Positions 11,776 to 35,835 of a stretch of DNA of 37,582 nt are shown in pieces. Source of the DNA: Bacteroidota bacterium (GTDB lineage: Bacteria > Bacteroidota > Ignavibacteria > Ignavibacteriales > SURF-24); the NCBI GenBank assembly GCA_030706145.1, contig JAUZPB010000035.1, positions 1-37,582 of the forward strand, given 5' to 3'. The first letter of the stretch is position 1, and each line of letters begins with the position of its first letter. The translations under genes and the position numbers were made by a program. The notes beneath the pieces were generated by a model. That model ran no database searches, was not told the origin of the DNA, and was given only the letters and a program-made list of their open reading frames with translations.

Positions 11776-12258
11776 TCAGGGGGTTCCTTGAATAGTATGC
11801 ATTAACAAATTTTTTAGTTGAAACTCGTGTCTTTTGGGGTGCATTACCGCATGCTCAAGCATAGCCTCTATGCAATAATCAGCCCCCCAGTTGGATTTGT
11901 ATACTTTATCAAAAAATTTAGATTCTTCAACTAAAGCCAGCGGGCGCTTCCACCTTTCAATCAGGTGATCGATATAGTTTTCGGCTTCATTTTCAATTAC
12001 TTCTATGCTTGGGAGCTGGTTTATCATAGGATCCTGTAGTTCAAGCTTTTGGCATATCCATCTCATATATCCGCCAGCAGAGCGTAAAACATGGAAAAGG
12101 AGTGTTTCTAAGGACTCATAATCCGGATCATCAGTTTCAGGAAGTCTTATTTCCCTTTCCTTTGCCTGCTTCCATACATTAAAAAAAGTCTTGATATTTT
12201 CTTCATGCAGCTGCACGAGAGCATTAGCACCTTTGTATATGTATATTTGACTTTTCAT
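11776..12258 (-). CDS. DinB-like helical bundle protein
   Basis: A 160-residue, mostly helical cytoplasmic protein. It has the histidines expected of the DinB/YfiT superfamily of putative metal-dependent enzymes: H56 in LLFHVLRSAGGYMRW and a cluster EHAVMHPKRH (H136, H140, H144), which would bind a divalent metal in a four-helix bundle. Some members are thiol S-transferases, but most are uncharacterised and no activity can be assigned here. Weak ribosome binding site (AGGT) before ATG. It is upstream of, and on the same strand as, the transglutaminase-like gene. Confidence 0.65.
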   Translation of the reverse strand: MKSQIYIYKGANALVQLHEENIKTFFNVWKQAKEREIRLPETDDPDYESLETLLFHVLRSAGGYMRWICQKLELQDPMINQLPSIEVIENEAENYIDHLIERWKRPLALVEESKFFDKVYKSNWGADYCIEAMLEHAVMHPKRHEFQLKNLLMHTIQGTP

Positions 12259-28370: not shown

Positions 28371-28964
28371 ATGGGTATAAAGGAAATCCTCCATAAAATA
28401 ATTCCGCCTCTCAAGTGGAAAGTGCCAGTTATTATAACATTAGGAGTACTTTCCGGCCTCATGCTGCTAATATTTCGAATATCCAATGCCACTTCATACT
28501 TATCTGATGATCCGCGTGCATGTATTAACTGTCATGTCATGACAACTGAATATGCATCATGGCAGAGGAGCAGTCATGCAAGAGTCGCAACGTGCAATGA
28601 CTGTCATGTTCCGCATAATAATTTTATAAGTAAGTATGCATTCAAGGCAAGTGATGGGATAAGGCATGCGACTATATTTACATTTCGATTAGAACCTCAG
28701 GTAATAATAATAAAGGAAGCAGGCACGAACGTAGTACAAGAGAATTGCCTAAGATGTCACGAGCATCGAATCGATCAGACATATTTAAGCCGGCCGATCA
28801 ATTTAAGAGAAAAAGAAGCCGGTGTAGGAAGATTTTGCTGGGACTGTCACAGAGAAGTTCCGCATGGGATAGTTAGGAGTCTGTCTGCCTACCCATATGC
28901 ACGAGTACCTCAGTTAGAGCCTGTTCTACCAGAATGGCTTCAGGAATTTTCAAATACAAAATAA
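28371..28964 (+). CDS. nrfH: Cytochrome c nitrite reductase small subunit, quinol-oxidising
   Basis: A 197-residue membrane-anchored tetrahaem cytochrome c of the NapC/NirT/NrfH family. One N-terminal helix (about 17-37) anchors it in the inner membrane with the haem domain outside. Four CxxCH sites are present: CINCH (51-55), CNDCH (75-79), CLRCH (126-130) and CWDCH (156-160); CINCHVM supplies the methionine typical of NrfH haem 1. It takes electrons from menaquinol and hands them to NrfA. AAAGG lies just upstream of the ATG. nrfA begins nine bases after its stop, so the two are one transcript. Confidence 0.95.
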   Translation: MGIKEILHKIIPPLKWKVPVIITLGVLSGLMLLIFRISNATSYLSDDPRACINCHVMTTEYASWQRSSHARVATCNDCHVPHNNFISKYAFKASDGIRHATIFTFRLEPQVIIIKEAGTNVVQENCLRCHEHRIDQTYLSRPINLREKEAGVGRFCWDCHREVPHGIVRSLSAYPYARVPQLEPVLPEWLQEFSNTK

Positions 28965-28973
28965 TGGTGGAAA

Positions 28974-30452
28974 ATGAGAAGGATCAGAGATGTAATCACT
29001 GAGAAGCCCTGGCTGGCCTGGGTTTTATTTTTTGCAACACTTATAGTAGTTTTTCTTGTGGGTCTGTTCGGAGCCTCCATTATAGAAAGGAGAAGTGAGA
29101 CACAGTATTTGTTCAAAGCCACAAAACCTATTAACCCTATGGAGCCAAGGAATCAGGTTTGGGGAGAAGCATTCCCGAGGGAATGGGAGACATACCAGCG
29201 CACACTTGATACTACCTTTGCAACCAAGTATGGTGGTAACATATCGATCGATATGCTTGAACGCTATCCAAATCTGGTTATACTCTGGGCAGGATATGCT
29301 TTTGCAAAAGGTTATAATCAAGGGCGTGGGCACATGCATGCAATTGAAGATGTAAGGAATTCATTAAGGACAGGTTCTCCGCAGCCTGCGACATGCTGGA
29401 CATGCAAAAGTCCCGATGTACCCAGGGTGATGAAAAAAATGGGGGTAGCAGAATTCTATAAACAGACCTGGACTTCGCTTGGACAGGAAATCACAAATCC
29501 CATTGGGTGTGCAGACTGCCATGATGCGCAAACGCTAAATCTTACAATAACGCGGCCTGCGCTAGTAGAAGCCTTCCAAAGGCAGGGCAAAGATATAAAG
29601 AAAGCCTCTCACCAGGAGATGAGATCTTTAGTCTGCGCACAATGCCATGTCGAATATTATTTTAAGGGTAAAGAAGAACACTATCTGACTTTTCCATGGG
29701 ACCAAGGAATTGTAGTAGATTCAATTGAGAAATATTATGACAGGGTCAATCACGTTGATTTTGTTCACTATTTAAGTCGTACTCCAATACTAAAGGCGCA
29801 GCATCCTGACTGGGAAATATCACAGATGGGAATTCATGCTCAAAGAGGAGTCACCTGTGTTGACTGTCACATGCCATATATGACTGAAGGGGGTGTCAAA
29901 TATACGAACCATCAGATCGTATCGCCTGTAAAATATATAACTGAGGCTTGCCAGGTATGTCACAGGCAGGACAAGGAAACGCTACTAAAAAATATCTACG
30001 ACAGGCAGGATAAAATCAGGGAACTGCTTTCTACTGCAGAGGAAGTACTTGTACATGCGCATATTGAAGCAAAGACGGCATGGGATCATGGAGCAACTGA
30101 AGAGCAGATGAAAGAGGTTATGACATTAATACGGCATGCGCAGTGGAGATGGGATTTTGTAGCCGCCAGTCATGGAGCAAGTTTTCATGCTCCAATTGAA
30201 TGTGCAAGAATACTTGCGACTTCTATACAGAGAGCAGAAGCAGCAAGAGGAAGGCTGGCAGCTATTCTAACTTCATTAGGAGAAAAGCTTCCTGTACAAT
30301 TGCCTGATCTTACGACAAAGGCAAAAGCCCAGGCTTATCTTGGTTTTGATATGAGACAGTTCTCCAAAGAAAAGGCAAGTTTTATTCAATCCGAAATTCC
30401 CAAGTGGGACAAGCAAGCGCAAGAGCGGGAAGCACAATTTAAGAACAGATAA
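28974..30452 (+). CDS. nrfA: Cytochrome c nitrite reductase catalytic subunit (nitrite to ammonium)
   Basis: A 492-residue pentahaem periplasmic enzyme that reduces nitrite by six electrons to ammonium, the terminal step of respiratory ammonification. A hydrophobic N-terminus (14-33) directs export. The catalytic haem has the rare CWTCK site (141-145), with lysine as proximal ligand. The others are CADCH (179-183), CAQCH (221-225), CVDCH (295-299) and CQVCH (326-330). Active-site candidates are R118 in GRGHMHA, Y228 in HVEYYF (E227 also a calcium ligand) and H288 in GIHAQRGVTC. All expected elements are present, so it should be functional. NrfH is its electron donor. A strong terminator follows at 30498. 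Confidence 0.96.
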   Translation: MRRIRDVITEKPWLAWVLFFATLIVVFLVGLFGASIIERRSETQYLFKATKPINPMEPRNQVWGEAFPREWETYQRTLDTTFATKYGGNISIDMLERYPNLVILWAGYAFAKGYNQGRGHMHAIEDVRNSLRTGSPQPATCWTCKSPDVPRVMKKMGVAEFYKQTWTSLGQEITNPIGCADCHDAQTLNLTITRPALVEAFQRQGKDIKKASHQEMRSLVCAQCHVEYYFKGKEEHYLTFPWDQGIVVDSIEKYYDRVNHVDFVHYLSRTPILKAQHPDWEISQMGIHAQRGVTCVDCHMPYMTEGGVKYTNHQIVSPVKYITEACQVCHRQDKETLLKNIYDRQDKIRELLSTAEEVLVHAHIEAKTAWDHGATEEQMKEVMTLIRHAQWRWDFVAASHGASFHAPIECARILATSIQRAEAARGRLAAILTSLGEKLPVQLPDLTTKAKAQAYLGFDMRQFSKEKASFIQSEIPKWDKQAQEREAQFKNR

Positions 30453-30483: not shown

Positions 30484-30521
30484 CAGGGCTGTTTTTCAGG
30501 GCTGTTTTTCAGCCCTTTTTT
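30484..30521 (+). terminator. Rho-independent terminator of nrfHA with duplicated left arm
   Basis: AGGGCTG (30498-30504), a TTTTT loop and CAGCCCT (30510-30516) form a 7-base stem followed by a T-run to 30521. The 13-base unit CAGGGCTGTTTTT occurs twice (30484-30496 and 30497-30509), so either copy of the left arm could pair with the single right arm. Confidence 0.85.
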
Positions 30522-30690
30522 ATTGTTTGAACTTAAATAATTTTATATCTATATTCAAAAGATACTTTTATAGTAGATCGGCCCAGAAAGACAGATCCAG
30601 CTTCTTTTAAATAAGGTTTTTAATATTCACCAAACTTTCAGTTAGTACTATTAATAATAATTAATAAAAACGAGCAAGTAAGGAGTGGAC

Positions 30691-31272
30691 ATGAAAATCG
30701 CTTATCGAATTGTAGCCCTGATTTCATTTCTTTTTTTAGTCTCAGCATCTACACCTGCGCAGCAGCAGCAGGCCAAAAAGCCTCGTGCAAGCCAGAAAGC
30801 CTCAGTATCACAGAGGATCGGACTCCAGACAGATATCAAAATAGACTATAGTCGTCCTGGTGTAAAAGGGAGGAAAATATGGGGAGATCTGGTTCCATAC
30901 GGATTAGCTCCCGGGAATAAATCTTCTGATAATAAACCTTATCCTTGGAGAGGTGGTGCTAATGAAAACACGACAATTGAGTTCAGTACAAATGTTCTTG
31001 TAGAAGGCAACAAATTACCCGCTGGTAAATACAGTCTTCATTTTATACCATCTGAGACTTCATGGGTTGTGGTTTTCAATAAGAACAGTTCGCAGTGGGG
31101 CAGCTATAAATATAGCCAGCAAGATGATGCACTCAGAGTAACAGTAACACCAGTAAAAGCTCCTTTCGAAGAATGGCTTACATATGGGTTCGACAATATT
31201 ACTGATAATTCCACGACAGCATATCTGCATTGGGCAGAGCTAAAAGTCCCATTTAAGATCTCCATTGAATAA
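30691..31272 (+). CDS. Secreted DUF2911 protein
   Basis: A 193-residue exported protein with signal peptide (MKIAYRIVALISFLFLVSASTPAQ). The body matches DUF2911: RIGLQTDIKIDYSRPGVKGRKIWG, LVPYG, WRGGANENTTIEFSTNV, LPAGKYSLHFIP and WVVVFNKNSSQWG are its characteristic blocks, in a beta-rich domain. The function of DUF2911 is unknown; it is widespread as a secreted protein in Bacteroidota relatives. A GTG two codons upstream (30685) is part of the ribosome binding site AAGGAG, so ATG at 30691 is the real start. It lies between nrfA and the PIG-L gene, with 105 bases to the latter. Confidence 0.88.
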   Translation: MKIAYRIVALISFLFLVSASTPAQQQQAKKPRASQKASVSQRIGLQTDIKIDYSRPGVKGRKIWGDLVPYGLAPGNKSSDNKPYPWRGGANENTTIEFSTNVLVEGNKLPAGKYSLHFIPSETSWVVVFNKNSSQWGSYKYSQQDDALRVTVTPVKAPFEEWLTYGFDNITDNSTTAYLHWAELKVPFKISIE

Positions 31273-31377: not shown

Positions 31378-33897
31378 ATGGCAAAAATTCTAAGGACTAC
31401 TTTCAGAAATCTGACTATTGCTCTATTATTCATAAACACATTTTGTGCTCAACCTAATGAGGCTGAAAACTCAGCTGAGCTGCAGATAGCAATAGAAAAG
31501 CTCAATGTTCTTGGGAGTGTCTTATATATCGGAGCACATCCGGATGATGAAAATACAGGACTACTGGCCTACCTTGCCAAGGGGAGGAAATACAGGAGTG
31601 CGTACTTATCACTAACCCGTGGAGACGGCGGGCAGAATCTTATTGGGTCAGAAAAAGGAAGCGAGATAGGTTTAATACGCACGCAGGAACTGCTTCAGGC
31701 AAGAGGTATTGATGGAGCCGAGCAGTATTTTACACGCGCAGTTGACTTTGGTTTTTCAAAATCTGCTGAAGAGACCTTTAAGATATGGAATAAAGAGGAA
31801 GTGCTTTCTGATATTGTGTGGGTTATAAGGAATTTTAAGCCTGATATAATTATTACGCGTTTCCCACCGGGAGAAAGCGGAGGTCATGGACATCATACAG
31901 CATCGGCAGAACTTGCAAAGGAAGCATTTTCTGCAGCTGCAGATCCCATGCGTTTTCCAGAACAGCTTAAGTATGTTACTGTCTGGAAAACAAAGAGATT
32001 GTTCTGGAATAACTTTAGGCCAACTGAAAAGGAAGTAAAAAATTCATTAACTATTAATACAGGATCTTACAATTCCCTTCTTGGCAAGTCATATACAGAA
32101 ATTGCAGCAGAAAGCAGGTCGATGCATAAAAGTCAGGGCTTTGGTGTATCTGCAATAAGAGGCGAGAGGATTGAATACTTCACTTTTATTGAAGGTGATA
32201 GTGCAAAGAGTGATATAATGGAAGGAATTGATGTAAGCTGGGGCAGAATGGAAAACTCTAATAAGATCCAAAGGTTAGCAGAGGAAGTACAAAAATCATT
32301 CAATCCCCTTTCAGAGATATCTTCATTAGACAAGTTAATTAAGCTCCACAGCGAAATGGTAAAGCATGGTGGCAGTTACTGGGTAGATACAAAGATAAAA
32401 GAGCTTCAAAAAATAATTCAATCGTGCTCAGGTCTATGGTTAGAAGCAATAGCATCAGACTATTCGGCAGCCCCTGGAGATGAGCTTACAGTAAGTACAT
32501 CAGTGATAAATCGTACTGTAAACAGATTTATATTTGAGAAAGTAGAATTTCCATCTATTTCATTAAGTGCAATTACTAAGATACCAAGTGTAATTACTAA
32601 GATACCACTAGCTCTCAACAAGCCCGCACTAGTTGAAAGTAAAATTAAGCTGCCAGAAGATTTCCCGATATCCCAGCCATATTGGTTGGAAGAGAATTCA
32701 TCAAACGGGCTGTTTAAGGTTAAAGACAAAAGAATGGTAGGAATGGCAGAAAACCCGCCTGCAATTTCAGCAGATTTATTTTTAAGCTACGATAAAGACA
32801 CGATTATTTTTACGGTCCCACTAATGTATAGGTGGAATGATAAAGTTGAAGGCGAGAAATACAGGCCTTTTGAGGTCCGCCCGCCTGTTACGGCAAATAC
32901 CAGAAATAAAGTTGAAATATTTACCAAAGGACAAAACAAAGAGATCAGGGTTATAATAAAAAGCGGTACAAATAACATCAGCGGAGAGGTTCATCTTATT
33001 GGTGAGGACGGAAGGTGGGAGATCAGTCCATCTTCAATTCCATTTTCATTAAAGAACAAATATGATGAAAAGACTGTGATATTTAATGTAAGGCCTGTAG
33101 AGGGTAAAGAAGCAACATCCAGGCTAAAGGCTGAAGTAACTGTCAATAACAAAAAGTACAGCAAATCACTTGTTGAGATCACACATCCGCATATTAAACC
33201 TGTTTCATATTTTCCTGAAAGTTATATTAAACTTGTAAATTTGGATATAAAAAAAGTCTCTGATCTCAAAATAGGATACATAATGGGCTCAGGAGATGAA
33301 ATACCTGAATGCCTGCACAGTATGGGTTACAGTGTTGACCTTTTAAGCGATGACTTTCTGGAAGAAGGAGGCGATCTTTCAAAATATGATGTAATTATTG
33401 CCGGAATCAGAGCCTACAATACTCGGGAGCGGATAAAATTTTTTCAGTGGCGTCTACTAGATTATATAAAAGAAGGAGGAACATTTATAGTCCAGTATAA
33501 TGTACCCACAGCTCTGCAAATCTCTGATATTGCTCCTTATCCGTTAACGCTTGGAAACGATAGGATAACAGTAGAGAACTCTCCAGTTGAATTTGTTAAC
33601 AAAGGGCATCAGCTCTTAAACTATCCGAACAAAATTACAGAAAAAGATTTTGATGGCTGGGTTCAGGAACGCGGTTTATATTTTGCAAGCAAATGGGATA
33701 AGCGCTATGAAACTGTTTTATCTGGTCATGACCCGAATGAAAGTCCACTTGAAGGAGGAATGCTTTTTGCTCACTATGGCAAAGGAATATTTATATATAC
33801 AGGTTATTCCTGGTTTCGCCAGTTACCAGAAGGAATAGCAGGGGCCTACAGAATCTTTGACAACATGATATCAGCGGGCAAGTATGCCGGGCAATAA
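31378..33897 (+). CDS. Secreted PIG-L/LmbE deacetylase with ThuA-like C-terminal domain
   Basis: An 839-residue exported protein (signal peptide near MAKILRTTFR...FCAQ). Residues 48-200 are a PIG-L/LmbE zinc de-N-acetylase: IGAHPDDEN (51-59, H54 and D57 as zinc ligands), TRGDGGQN (80-87) and GGHGHHTAS (168-176, H173 likely the third ligand). Such enzymes remove N-acetyl from GlcNAc-type sugars. A beta-rich middle (about 350-600, NEW3-like) leads to a ThuA/GATase-like domain (about 620-835; YDVIIAGIRAYN, YIKEGGTFIVQYN, GMLFAHYGKGIFIYTG). The residues at 397-410 are an in-frame 7-residue duplication. It overlaps the next small gene or nearly touches it, and a symporter follows, so import of the released amino sugar is conceivable. 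The substrate is not known. Confidence 0.88.
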   Translation: MAKILRTTFRNLTIALLFINTFCAQPNEAENSAELQIAIEKLNVLGSVLYIGAHPDDENTGLLAYLAKGRKYRSAYLSLTRGDGGQNLIGSEKGSEIGLIRTQELLQARGIDGAEQYFTRAVDFGFSKSAEETFKIWNKEEVLSDIVWVIRNFKPDIIITRFPPGESGGHGHHTASAELAKEAFSAAADPMRFPEQLKYVTVWKTKRLFWNNFRPTEKEVKNSLTINTGSYNSLLGKSYTEIAAESRSMHKSQGFGVSAIRGERIEYFTFIEGDSAKSDIMEGIDVSWGRMENSNKIQRLAEEVQKSFNPLSEISSLDKLIKLHSEMVKHGGSYWVDTKIKELQKIIQSCSGLWLEAIASDYSAAPGDELTVSTSVINRTVNRFIFEKVEFPSISLSAITKIPSVITKIPLALNKPALVESKIKLPEDFPISQPYWLEENSSNGLFKVKDKRMVGMAENPPAISADLFLSYDKDTIIFTVPLMYRWNDKVEGEKYRPFEVRPPVTANTRNKVEIFTKGQNKEIRVIIKSGTNNISGEVHLIGEDGRWEISPSSIPFSLKNKYDEKTVIFNVRPVEGKEATSRLKAEVTVNNKKYSKSLVEITHPHIKPVSYFPESYIKLVNLDIKKVSDLKIGYIMGSGDEIPECLHSMGYSVDLLSDDFLEEGGDLSKYDVIIAGIRAYNTRERIKFFQWRLLDYIKEGGTFIVQYNVPTALQISDIAPYPLTLGNDRITVENSPVEFVNKGHQLLNYPNKITEKDFDGWVQERGLYFASKWDKRYETVLSGHDPNESPLEGGMLFAHYGKGIFIYTGYSWFRQLPEGIAGAYRIFDNMISAGKYAGQ
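32566..32607 (+). repeat. In-frame 21-bp tandem duplication in the PIG-L gene
   Basis: AGTGCAATTACTAAGATACC(A) at 32566-32586 and its copy with one C-to-T change at 32587-32607 encode SAITKIP and SVITKIP, residues 397-403 and 404-410 of the deacetylase. The one mismatch suggests a fairly recent slippage or duplication. Confidence 0.85.
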
Positions 33898-33913
33898 ACA
33901 TATAGCAGGGAAT

Positions 33914-34066
33914 ATGGTACAGGAAAGTGAATCTAAAACAAGATCTCAAGATGATGAAGAAAGGCCGCCAATACTATCGAGCTGGAGGCAGCTTTATTTG
34001 CTTGTCTTTCTTAATCTTGTTGTACTGATTATACTATTTTACACATTCACAAAACTATTCAGCTAA
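33914..34066 (+). CDS. Small single-pass membrane protein
   Basis: About 50 residues: a charged N-terminus (VQESESKTRSQDDEERPP), then one hydrophobic helix (LYLLVFLNLVVLIILFYTF) and a short tail. The frame opens at 33884, overlapping the PIG-L stop by 14 bases, but ATG at 33914 with AGGG just before is the likelier start. It lies 16 bases after the deacetylase and 38 bases before the symporter, so all three are probably one operon. Its size and single helix suggest a small accessory subunit or tether, but no family is recognised and this is inference. Confidence 0.6.
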   Translation: MVQESESKTRSQDDEERPPILSSWRQLYLLVFLNLVVLIILFYTFTKLFS

Positions 34067-34104
34067 CATACGCAGGCTTTAAAAGAAACAGACGGCAAGC
34101 AGAT

Positions 34105-35835
34105 ATGAGTTCATTGGATTGGATAATACTTATAGCATTTATAAGCTTTGTTGTAGTCTATGGCACATGGAAGACACGCGGGAAGAAAAACATACGAGAA
34201 TATCTGCTTACAAACCGAACCACCCCCTGGTATATTGTTACTCTTTCTATAATGGCAACACAGGCAAGCGCCATAACATTCTTATCAACACCCGGGCAAG
34301 CATATGTAGACGGGATGAGGTTTGTACAGTTTTATCTTGGACTACCAATAGCTATGATAATACTTTCGCAAACTGCAGTTCCCATATTTCACCGCATGAA
34401 TGTTTACACGGCATATGAATACCTGGAGCAGAGATTTGATCTTAAGAGCAGAATTTTAGGGAGCATTCTTTTCTTGATTCAGCGAGGGCTTGCAACGGGA
34501 TTTACAATACTTGCCCCATCGCTAATAATTTCTGTACTGCTTGGCTGGGACATAAGGCTTACAATTTTAACGATTGGATCACTCGTTGTTCTATACACAG
34601 CATCAGGGGGAACAGATGCTGTAAACAGGACGCATCTACTGCAAATGATAATTATTTTATGTGGTATGTTATCTGCATTCATTTTTATTTTTAAGGTACT
34701 TCCCCCGGACATAACATTTTTTGATGCTACGCGTGTAGCGGGGAAAATGGGAAAGCTAAATGCCATTACCTTCAATTTTGCCTGGAAGGACAGGTACAAT
34801 TTCTGGTCGGGGCTAATAGGCGGGACATTTCTTGCGCTCTCATATTTTGGAACGGACCAGTCACAGGTGCAGCGATATCTGGCAGGAAAGTCAATTGCAC
34901 AGAGCCGCATAGGGTTATTAGCAAATGGAATCGTAAAAATACCGATGCAGTTCAGCATTCTTTTTCTTGGAGCAATGGTCTTTGTATTTTACCAATTCGT
35001 TACTCCCCCACTGTTTTTTAATCCCGTTGAAAGGGAGAAAGTAAAGCTTAGCAGTTACGGAGATAAGTTCAGTAGCCTTGAGCAAAAATATGGAGAGCTA
35101 CACACAAAGAAGCAAAAAAAGCTCAGGGAAATGCTTACAGCACTAGATAATGGTAATGAAAATGAGATTGCAAGTGCTAAGAGATCGGTTGATGAAGTAA
35201 AGAAAGATGAGCTTGAAGTCAGGGAAAGTGCTATAGGTGTAATAAAGCAGGCAAATCCAAATGCAGATACAAGTGATACAAATTATATTTTTCTAAGTTT
35301 TGTAATCCACGTCTTACCTCCTGGTCTTATTGGGCTTGTGCTTGCATCAATTTTTTCTGCTTCCATGTCTTCAACCTCAGCTGAACTTAATGCTCTTGCA
35401 TCGACAACAGTAGTCGACATATATAAGCGGCTTATTAAGCCAAATGCAACAGAGAGACATTATTTAATATTATCAAGAATATTTACTGTCCTATGGGGCA
35501 CTTTTGCAATTTTATTTGCACTGTTTGCCAACAGACTTGGGTCATTAATAGAGGCAGTAAACATCTTGGGATCACTTTTTTATGGAACCATTCTTGGAAT
35601 ATTCTTAATTGCATTTTATATAAAGAGTCTTTCCGGCAGTGCTACATTCTATGCAGCAATTGCAGCAGAGATCATAGTAATTGCTTGTTTTTTATTTACA
35701 GATATTCCTTACTTGTGGTATAATGTAATTGGCTGTGCTATACTAATAATAATTGCATACCTGATAAATCCTTTTATTAAAAGCCTCGGAAGCAGCAGAG
35801 AAGAGAGAGGGCAAGGTAGAGATAATAAAGAATAA
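34105..35835 (+). CDS. Sodium:solute symporter (SSS family) with large charged insertion
   Basis: A 576-residue inner-membrane symporter of the SSS family (SGLT/PutP/NanT type, LeuT fold). Typical blocks are TNRTTPWYIVTLSIMATQASAITFLSTPG (TM2 region, about 36-64), TASGGTDAVNRTHLLQ (165-180), FGTDQSQVQRYLAGKS (248-263) and IFSASMSSTSAELNALASTT (416-435), where the S/T residues form the usual Na2 site. A charged, mostly helical stretch of about 90 residues (about 306-394) lies in the loop before that helix, far longer than in standard members; it should face the periplasm. The substrate is unknown. With the PIG-L deacetylase upstream, an amino sugar or related glycoside is a guess. It follows the small membrane protein by 38 bases. 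Confidence 0.88.
   Translation: MSSLDWIILIAFISFVVVYGTWKTRGKKNIREYLLTNRTTPWYIVTLSIMATQASAITFLSTPGQAYVDGMRFVQFYLGLPIAMIILSQTAVPIFHRMNVYTAYEYLEQRFDLKSRILGSILFLIQRGLATGFTILAPSLIISVLLGWDIRLTILTIGSLVVLYTASGGTDAVNRTHLLQMIIILCGMLSAFIFIFKVLPPDITFFDATRVAGKMGKLNAITFNFAWKDRYNFWSGLIGGTFLALSYFGTDQSQVQRYLAGKSIAQSRIGLLANGIVKIPMQFSILFLGAMVFVFYQFVTPPLFFNPVEREKVKLSSYGDKFSSLEQKYGELHTKKQKKLREMLTALDNGNENEIASAKRSVDEVKKDELEVRESAIGVIKQANPNADTSDTNYIFLSFVIHVLPPGLIGLVLASIFSASMSSTSAELNALASTTVVDIYKRLIKPNATERHYLILSRIFTVLWGTFAILFALFANRLGSLIEAVNILGSLFYGTILGIFLIAFYIKSLSGSATFYAAIAAEIIVIACFLFTDIPYLWYNVIGCAILIIIAYLINPFIKSLGSSREERGQGRDNKE

Follow-up and report, generated by a model that had tools for sequence, protein, structure and literature searches.

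A three-gene unit was studied in a stretch of 37,582 nucleotides (the window; contig JAUZPB010000035.1 of assembly GCA_030706145.1) from a member of the class Ignavibacteria, phylum Bacteroidota. The unit encodes a PIG-L family enzyme predicted to be secreted (DEAC), a single-pass membrane micro-protein and a sodium/solute symporter of the SSS family (SSS). In several phyla these genes are kept together and in this order, with a gene for a DUF2911 protein recurring beside them; the unit is real, widespread and not local to the window. Known protein families are combined here in a new way and joined by a micro-protein family that is itself new, and the unit is uncatalogued in the libraries and literature searched. 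That the unit may work on bacillithiol (BSH) chemistry is supported, not proven, by the genes found around it.

An original prediction, made from the letters of the window alone, had described three tightly packed plus-strand genes, and these lie where it placed them, with 16 nucleotides (nt) between DEAC and the micro-protein gene and 38 nt between the latter and SSS. It had also proposed one function for enzyme and symporter, which is well supported by their ordered adjacency in most genomes that carry both, and had suggested checking the conservation of the gene order. The trio is kept beyond close relatives with the small open reading frame (ORF) intact, an outcome that favours a unit. The recurrent fourth gene, encoding DUF2911 at 30685-31272, had been missed.

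Conservation of the gene unit

In a class-level set of 245 genomes (E<=1e-70 for SSS, E<=1e-50 for DEAC), SSS was found in 37 genomes and DEAC in 48. For the phylum of the window, 395 genomes were scanned (E<=1e-60 and E<=1e-40, respectively); SSS was found in 143 and DEAC in 131. For the pairing of the two genes, DEAC matches down to approximately 2.5e-61 were counted, giving 113 DEAC genomes; both genes were present in 106 genomes of the phylum. Regarding these 106 genomes, DEAC lies upstream of SSS on the same strand and within 3.5 kb in 94 (median gap 164 nt), and the two genes are apart in 12. Fisher's test of the co-occurrence over the 395 genomes gave p=1.3e-54; this and the other co-occurrence p values below are nominal, as the genomes are related and kinship was ignored.

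Seven DEAC genomes of the phylum lack SSS, among them G017 (genomes and loci carry G and L numbers, respectively), where DEAC and the micro-protein are retained (L197:1945-4900) but only a few dozen residues at each end of SSS are left, a candidate case of recent decay or of an assembly fault. Unusual copies were seen in two other genomes. G180 (L057, L058) has the unit twice on one chromosome contig, close to either end, with DEAC broken in each copy and an internal TAG in one of the SSS genes; in G240 (L061) the SSS region occurs twice, in opposite orientations and with equal scores, and is probably an assembly artefact.

The micro-protein

The micro-protein is a real family that is uncatalogued in Pfam and NCBIfam. 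It is characterized by the motif PP...SW...Y..V...L..LI.LFY.FT..F, with M1, W24 and Y28 conserved in at least 90%, and by lengths of 30 to 66 amino acids (aa), with starts chosen by rule. Among the families matched at E<=1 by the 46 members compared (12 NCBIfam families and the first 25 of 30 Pfam families), none was above its cut-off, and DUF4212/TIGR03647 and similar models of SSS small subunits gave no match among those families. A 'Regulin-like' Pfam match (ALN 0.0077; 0.011, in one of the 46 members) was taken as chance. The 35-codon core is under purifying selection, the proportions of nonsynonymous (pN) and synonymous (pS) differences from three relatives being 0.15-0.19 and 0.65-0.79, respectively.

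A profile built from 23 sequences of one class was applied to held-out loci (L059-L107). At their 40 SSS starts it yielded 28 matches at E<0.01, six at 0.04-0.11 and six misses; away from the position upstream of SSS, no match at E<0.01 was found among 9346 short ORFs, training loci included. Among the six misses, L068, L084-L086 and L088 have a divergent one-helix ORF and L105 has none. The selection on the core and the restriction of held-out matches to this position bear out the view that the small ORF is a gene.

Regarding the 27 class loci with both DEAC and SSS (L032-L058), the micro-protein ORF was present in 24; it is absent from L052-L054 (three genomes of one genus), where DEAC overlaps SSS directly. 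In 20 hand-picked loci from across the phylum, 16 micro-proteins were identified by the profile (E<0.01) and four by position and hydropathy only. In the 80 named loci, which are the best by SSS similarity (at least 586 relatives were confirmed among the 592 matches listed), the micro-protein lies directly upstream of SSS in 74 (E<0.05), in taxa that include Acidobacteria, Calditrichia and Myxococcales. It was matched at E=0.08 in L176 and recognised by eye in L147 and L179, and the sequence upstream of SSS is missing in L187. Two other matches, in L108 and L149, were found among the 11241 short ORFs of the named loci. In L149 the micro-protein occurs again in a shorter version (L149:664-801) approximately 1.9 kb upstream of SSS. 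An overlap of 4 nt with the SSS start was seen in 67 of 75 cases; in the window and some relatives the micro-protein ends at least 35 nt before that start and is still kept.

The single significant profile match in the window's genome is this ORF, despite six other SSS-like places. Of 149 class genomes, 14 gave matches at E<=0.001, twelve of them beside SSS, one beside DEAC and SSS remnants (G017) and one apart (G148); G003, which has SSS, gave none at this threshold.

The small protein had been proposed as a tether or a regulator, and the two parts of this proposal fared differently. Regarding the SSS loci in nine of the 12 genomes with DEAC and SSS apart, the micro-protein was found upstream at E<0.01 in six (G156, G258, G273, G388, G432, G524) and with weaker matches (E 0.05 and 0.11) in G161 and G311, the ninth genome, G148, having it elsewhere, whereas at seven enzyme-only loci (L060, L062, L064, L071, L092, L093, L099) it was not found at E<0.3. 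Both sets of loci disfavour a tether of DEAC; G017 and L108, where the micro-protein stands beside DEAC, speak for it. G196 (L065/L066) was left out of this argument, its SSS and DEAC lying at contig ends and being possibly neighbours. The micro-protein mostly goes with SSS and not with DEAC, and is therefore best read as a putative partner of the symporter, a role as its subunit or regulator being favoured over that of an enzyme tether on the evidence of gene positions. The flanking charges (224 K/R vs 214 D/E on the N side, 53 vs 22 on the C side) point weakly to a cytoplasmic C-terminus.

The frame in the window has its first ATG at 33884 (60 aa, overlapping the DEAC stop) and an inner ATG at 33914 (50 aa), each a candidate start. 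In six loci of Bacteroidia (L073, L074, L076, L080, L082, L090) the micro-protein is separated from DEAC by a second small ORF that is glycine-rich, probably encodes two helices, measures 53-65 aa in five of these loci and is the end of a longer frame in L090.

Small subunits of SSS transporters include TIGR03647/DUF4212, YhdT and DUF3311. According to the available part of PMC10710835, AcrZ, MgtS and MgtU are small partners of transporters, and the protein given in the one SSS entry there is a PII protein rather than a micro-protein. The likeness to AcrZ, MgtS, MgtU and the SSS small subunits lies in a tiny membrane protein beside or acting on a transporter; the micro-protein differs from them by its single helix with a W...Y motif and by matching no curated family above cut-off.

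The enzyme

The PF02585 match of DEAC covers residues 49-183 with 68.3 bits (gathering score 28.2). An AlphaFold2 model from an input alignment of 50 sequences (mean predicted local distance difference test (pLDDT) 91.5, predicted template modelling score (pTM) 0.89) has a PIG-L domain at the N-terminus, a ThuA-like domain at the C-terminus and a beta-rich region between them, the two named domains being those of the original prediction. Residues 43-287 matched MshB 4ewl with Z 22.8 (2.9 A, 225 residues), LnmX 5bmo with Z 21.2 and BshB 6ull with Z 19.4. The motifs H54-P55-D56-D57 and H170-G171-x-H173 are invariant in the 50 sequences, and H54, D56, D57, H170 and H173 presumably have the zinc-binding and catalytic roles known from PIG-L enzymes. 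Residues 628-839 matched ThuA-like 1t0b with Z 16.4 (3.1 A, 194 residues) and 4jqs with Z 16.3, and 2gk3 with Z 18.4; no Pfam ThuA match was found for the C-terminus, so that the ThuA-like assignment is by fold.

The best NCBIfam model for DEAC is Mca (mycothiol-conjugate amidase), which was matched at E<=0.001 by 50 of 50 DEAC relatives. The BshB1 equivalog scored 28.1 bits, below its cut-off of 182.5, and a separate BshB1 above cut-off coexists with DEAC in L108. DEAC is taken as probably secreted because the model has a helix at residues 2-22, a putative signal peptide, followed by 'AQ' in the consensus. In comparison with MshB, Mca, BshB and LnmX, DEAC has the fold of residues 43-287 (Z 19-23 for MshB, LnmX and BshB) and the HPDD and HxxH motifs in common; it differs in its predicted secretion, its 839 aa and its extra beta-rich and ThuA-like domains, and scores far below the cut-offs of the Mca and BshB1 equivalogs.

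The symporter

The SSF domain extends over both halves of SSS (130.3 bits vs 22.8), and TIGR00813 was matched at 2e-65 with 221.4 bits (cut-off 184). TIGR03648, the large subunit of VC_2705-type two-component SSS transporters, scored 47 bits at a cut-off of 320.75. The closest solved relative by profile was SiaT 5nv9 (5.7e-74), aligned along both halves. The unusual insertion noted in the original prediction corresponds to profile positions 302-394, which are unmatched in SiaT 5nv9, where approximately 10 residues are found; a similar-sized insertion stands at the same place in the relatives (32-row alignment). SSS topology puts the segment before the S.SS helix on the periplasmic side, and the insertion is therefore presumably periplasmic. 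The S.SS helix motif aligns with SiaT, and Na+ coupling is predicted. The window's SSS has the SSF domain in common with SiaT, SMVT, SMCT and vSGLT and differs from them by its insertion of about 90 residues and its own putative micro-protein partner.

Association with DUF2911 and bacillithiol genes

DUF2911 was present in 23 of 41 loci in a first clustering and in 44 of 81 loci (the 80 named loci and the window; ORFs of at least 90 aa) in a later one, either upstream in the same orientation or behind SSS and convergent with it. Beyond SSS, DEAC and DUF2911, every other cluster was found in at most six of the 81 loci. Structure searches with the DUF2911 AlphaFold2 model (pLDDT 87.6) yielded no Foldseek match at E<=0.001 and no VIA-align match above Z 4.0.

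In L108 (Candidatus Aminicenantes bin34) the order DUF2911-DEAC-micro-protein-bshC-bshB1-bshA-SSS was found on one strand, with spacings from a 20-nt overlap to a 210-nt gap; bshA, bshB1 and bshC all pass the NCBIfam equivalog cut-offs. L194, from a second Aminicenantes genome (G543), has the gene order of L108 minus the micro-protein, and a short contig of G543 (L110) repeats the bshA-SSS stretch with 87% identity, which points to a duplicate or a variant from another strain. The bshA gene of L191 (G576, from the phylum of G542) runs into the start of DEAC, and the micro-protein, SSS and DUF2911 follow; BshC was not found in this genome. In L175 (Myxococcales) bshA and bshC are divergent from DEAC-micro-protein-SSS, and in L187 (Chthoniobacterales) bshA follows SSS, a BshB1-like piece there failing the NCBIfam cut-off. 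The BshA and BshC proteins at these loci pass their NCBIfam cut-offs. Among eight regions fetched, L188, chosen for the closeness of bshC, has this gene approximately 7 kb upstream, L191 was chosen for its missing BshC, and no bsh genes were found in L189, L190, L192 and L193.

Regarding the 16 named loci whose titles do not give Bacteroidota or Ignavibacteria (including L161, titled 'bacterium' only), a bsh gene was present in four, compared with approximately 0.2 expected at a rough rate, and BshC was found in the genomes of 14, G554 having weak pieces only. Among 75 genomes of the phylum of G542 (Aminicenantes, and also G551, Acidobacteria), BshC was present in 23 of 25 genomes with SSS vs 23 of 50 without (p=6.8e-5), the SSS hits of G565 and G595 being weak or partial. 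In the window's phylum it was present in 143 of 143 genomes with SSS vs 241 of 252 without (p=0.0066). The window's genome encodes BshA (E 1e-168), on another contig, and BshC (5.6e-112). No route of bacillithiol uptake or extracellular degradation was found in the accessible parts of the literature searched, mostly without subscription journals.

Proposed function and alternatives

The reading put first, tentatively and at slightly less than even confidence, is an extracytoplasmic salvage module for bacillithiol with the micro-protein as the partner of SSS and DUF2911 as a recurrent member. Secreted DEAC may be a zinc amidase or deacetylase of the MshB/Mca/BshB kind that would cut the cysteine-glucosamine amide of periplasmic BSH, N-methyl-BSH or BSH S-conjugates; SSS would re-import the product with Na+, either glucosamine-malate (GlcN-malate), or cysteine or a cysteine conjugate, and BshC could rebuild the thiol from it. 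The micro-protein usually takes a translational-coupling position, its stop overlapping the SSS start, and probably binds SSS, either as a stabiliser or regulator of it or as its small subunit, much like AcrZ and MgtU on other transporters. A hitherto undescribed bacillithiol cycle outside the cytoplasm in Bacteroidota, Acidobacteriota and others, in which the BSH amidase would be secreted, the Na+ symporter would have the one-helix micro-protein as its second component and DUF2911 would be an accessory, is conceivable and more doubtful.

Bacillithiol is a cysteinyl-glucosamine-malate conjugate, and the sugar conjugate originally predicted as substrate therefore fits it; the predicted de-N-acetylation may be wrong, the nearest model being an S-conjugate amidase. 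In glutathione turnover, a periplasmic gamma-glutamyltranspeptidase and uptake act. The likeness proposed here is that a protected cysteine amide would be cut outside the cytoplasm and its parts re-imported; the difference is that the proteins are unrelated to those of the unit and the substrate is glutathione. According to the available part of PMC6336425, hydrolysis of the cysteinyl-glucosamine amide calls for dedicated enzymes, in the way that glutathione depends on gamma-glutamyl transpeptidase.

Several observations weigh against bacillithiol salvage by such a unit. SSS occurs without DEAC, at the cut used, in 37 of the 143 SSS genomes of the window's phylum, and the symporter is therefore useful without the enzyme. 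The micro-protein is absent from L052-L054, L105 and L110/L194, for which its universality was rejected; L193 has a divergent candidate only, bsh genes separate the micro-protein from SSS in L108, G148 has it approximately 108 kb away from its SSS, and in G017 it stands beside DEAC with only SSS remnants left. G576 and G624, SSS-positive members of the phylum of G542, have no detected BshC. Nearly all genomes of the window's phylum carry bshC (384 of 395), and the gene is found less than 10 kb from DEAC in three (G311, G480, G515) of the 70 genomes listed out of 113 with DEAC, a closeness not clearly above chance; for these two reasons the closeness was dropped as an argument. DEAC scores 49.6 bits against the Mca equivalog, far below the cut-off of 277.15, and diacetylchitobiose deacetylases are nearly as close to it in fold (Z approximately 20).

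The last point favours general amino-sugar scavenging, in which DEAC would de-N-acetylate an environmental oligosaccharide or glycoconjugate of the N-acetylglucosamine (GlcNAc) type outside the cytoplasm and SSS would import the amino sugar. Such scavenging comes near to the function given in the original prediction. SiaT, the best profile match of SSS, is a sialic-acid transporter, and the ThuA-like matches include sugar-enzyme domains. This function is considered unlikely: in the 81-locus clustering no gene cluster beyond SSS, DEAC and DUF2911 was found in more than six loci, and in several lineages the operon holds bsh genes, not sugar genes.

The match of all 50 DEAC relatives to Mca would also suit detoxification, in which DEAC would process exported BSH S-conjugates of electrophiles or antibiotics and SSS would recover the GlcN-malate half only. 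ORFs presumed to be DinB-like lie near the unit in five of the 80 named loci, a small number that includes close relatives. As far as the available part of PMC4360819 goes, the Mca and Bca amidases cleave thiol S-conjugates, but this cleavage precedes the export of the mercapturic acids. No efflux gene recurs in the 81 loci, and detoxification appears quite improbable.

Without any function as a protein, the micro-protein would be a leader for translational coupling or an overlap accident, which the frequent 4-nt overlap with the SSS start would fit; this reading is very improbable given a W, a Y and a helix conserved across phyla, the purifying selection on the core and its retention where it ends well before SSS.

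Features of the window and neighbouring genes

The coordinates of the features are summarized in Table 1. A scan of the window for promoters and terminators gave numbers at chance level (13 vs 15.7; 5 vs 4.3). Between the DUF2911 gene and its upstream neighbour stands a terminator-like hairpin at 30498-30516, so that the unit could begin with DUF2911, a weak suggestion. Upstream of the hairpin, at 28371-30452, are two multiheme cytochrome genes with CxxCH motifs, which we take to resemble the nrfH-nrfA nitrite reductase genes.

Table 1. Positions of the unit and its parts in the window
Feature	Position	Strand	Evidence
DUF2911 secreted protein, 195 aa	30685..31272	+	PF11138 2.2e-48
DEAC, PIG-L enzyme, predicted secreted, 839 aa: PIG-L, beta-rich middle, ThuA-like C-terminus	31378..33897	+	PF02585 1.2e-18
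PIG-L catalytic domain of DEAC, approximately residues 43-287	31504..32238	+	structure matches, invariant motifs
ThuA-like / class I amidotransferase-like domain of DEAC, residues 628-839	33259..33894	+	structure comparison
Single-pass membrane micro-protein, 50 aa (60 aa if start = 33884)	33914..34066	+	
SSS-family sodium/solute symporter, 576 aa	34105..35835	+	PF00474 1.2e-37
SSS insertion, about 90 residues, before the S.SS-motif helix	35011..35274 (limits approximate)	+	alignment, profile comparison

In five loci of one family (L034, L036, L038, L047, L057) the unit is divergent from genes that are presumably kdsA-, kdsD- and lptC/A/B-like. One recurrent gene stands beside DUF2911 in seven loci (L035, L037, L043, L044, L050, L051, L065), and is taken to encode a class V aminotransferase-like protein with a Tat-like leader. 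Bacillithiol S-transferases have a DinB fold; the ORFs presumed to be DinB-like are located at 11776-12258 on the minus strand of the window and near the unit in L130, L153, L166, L169 and L174.

Significance

The unit is a testable candidate for the recovery of bacillithiol outside the cytoplasm. Its micro-protein represents a widely conserved, uncatalogued family tied to one SSS subfamily, which makes the biology of symporter small subunits directly testable.

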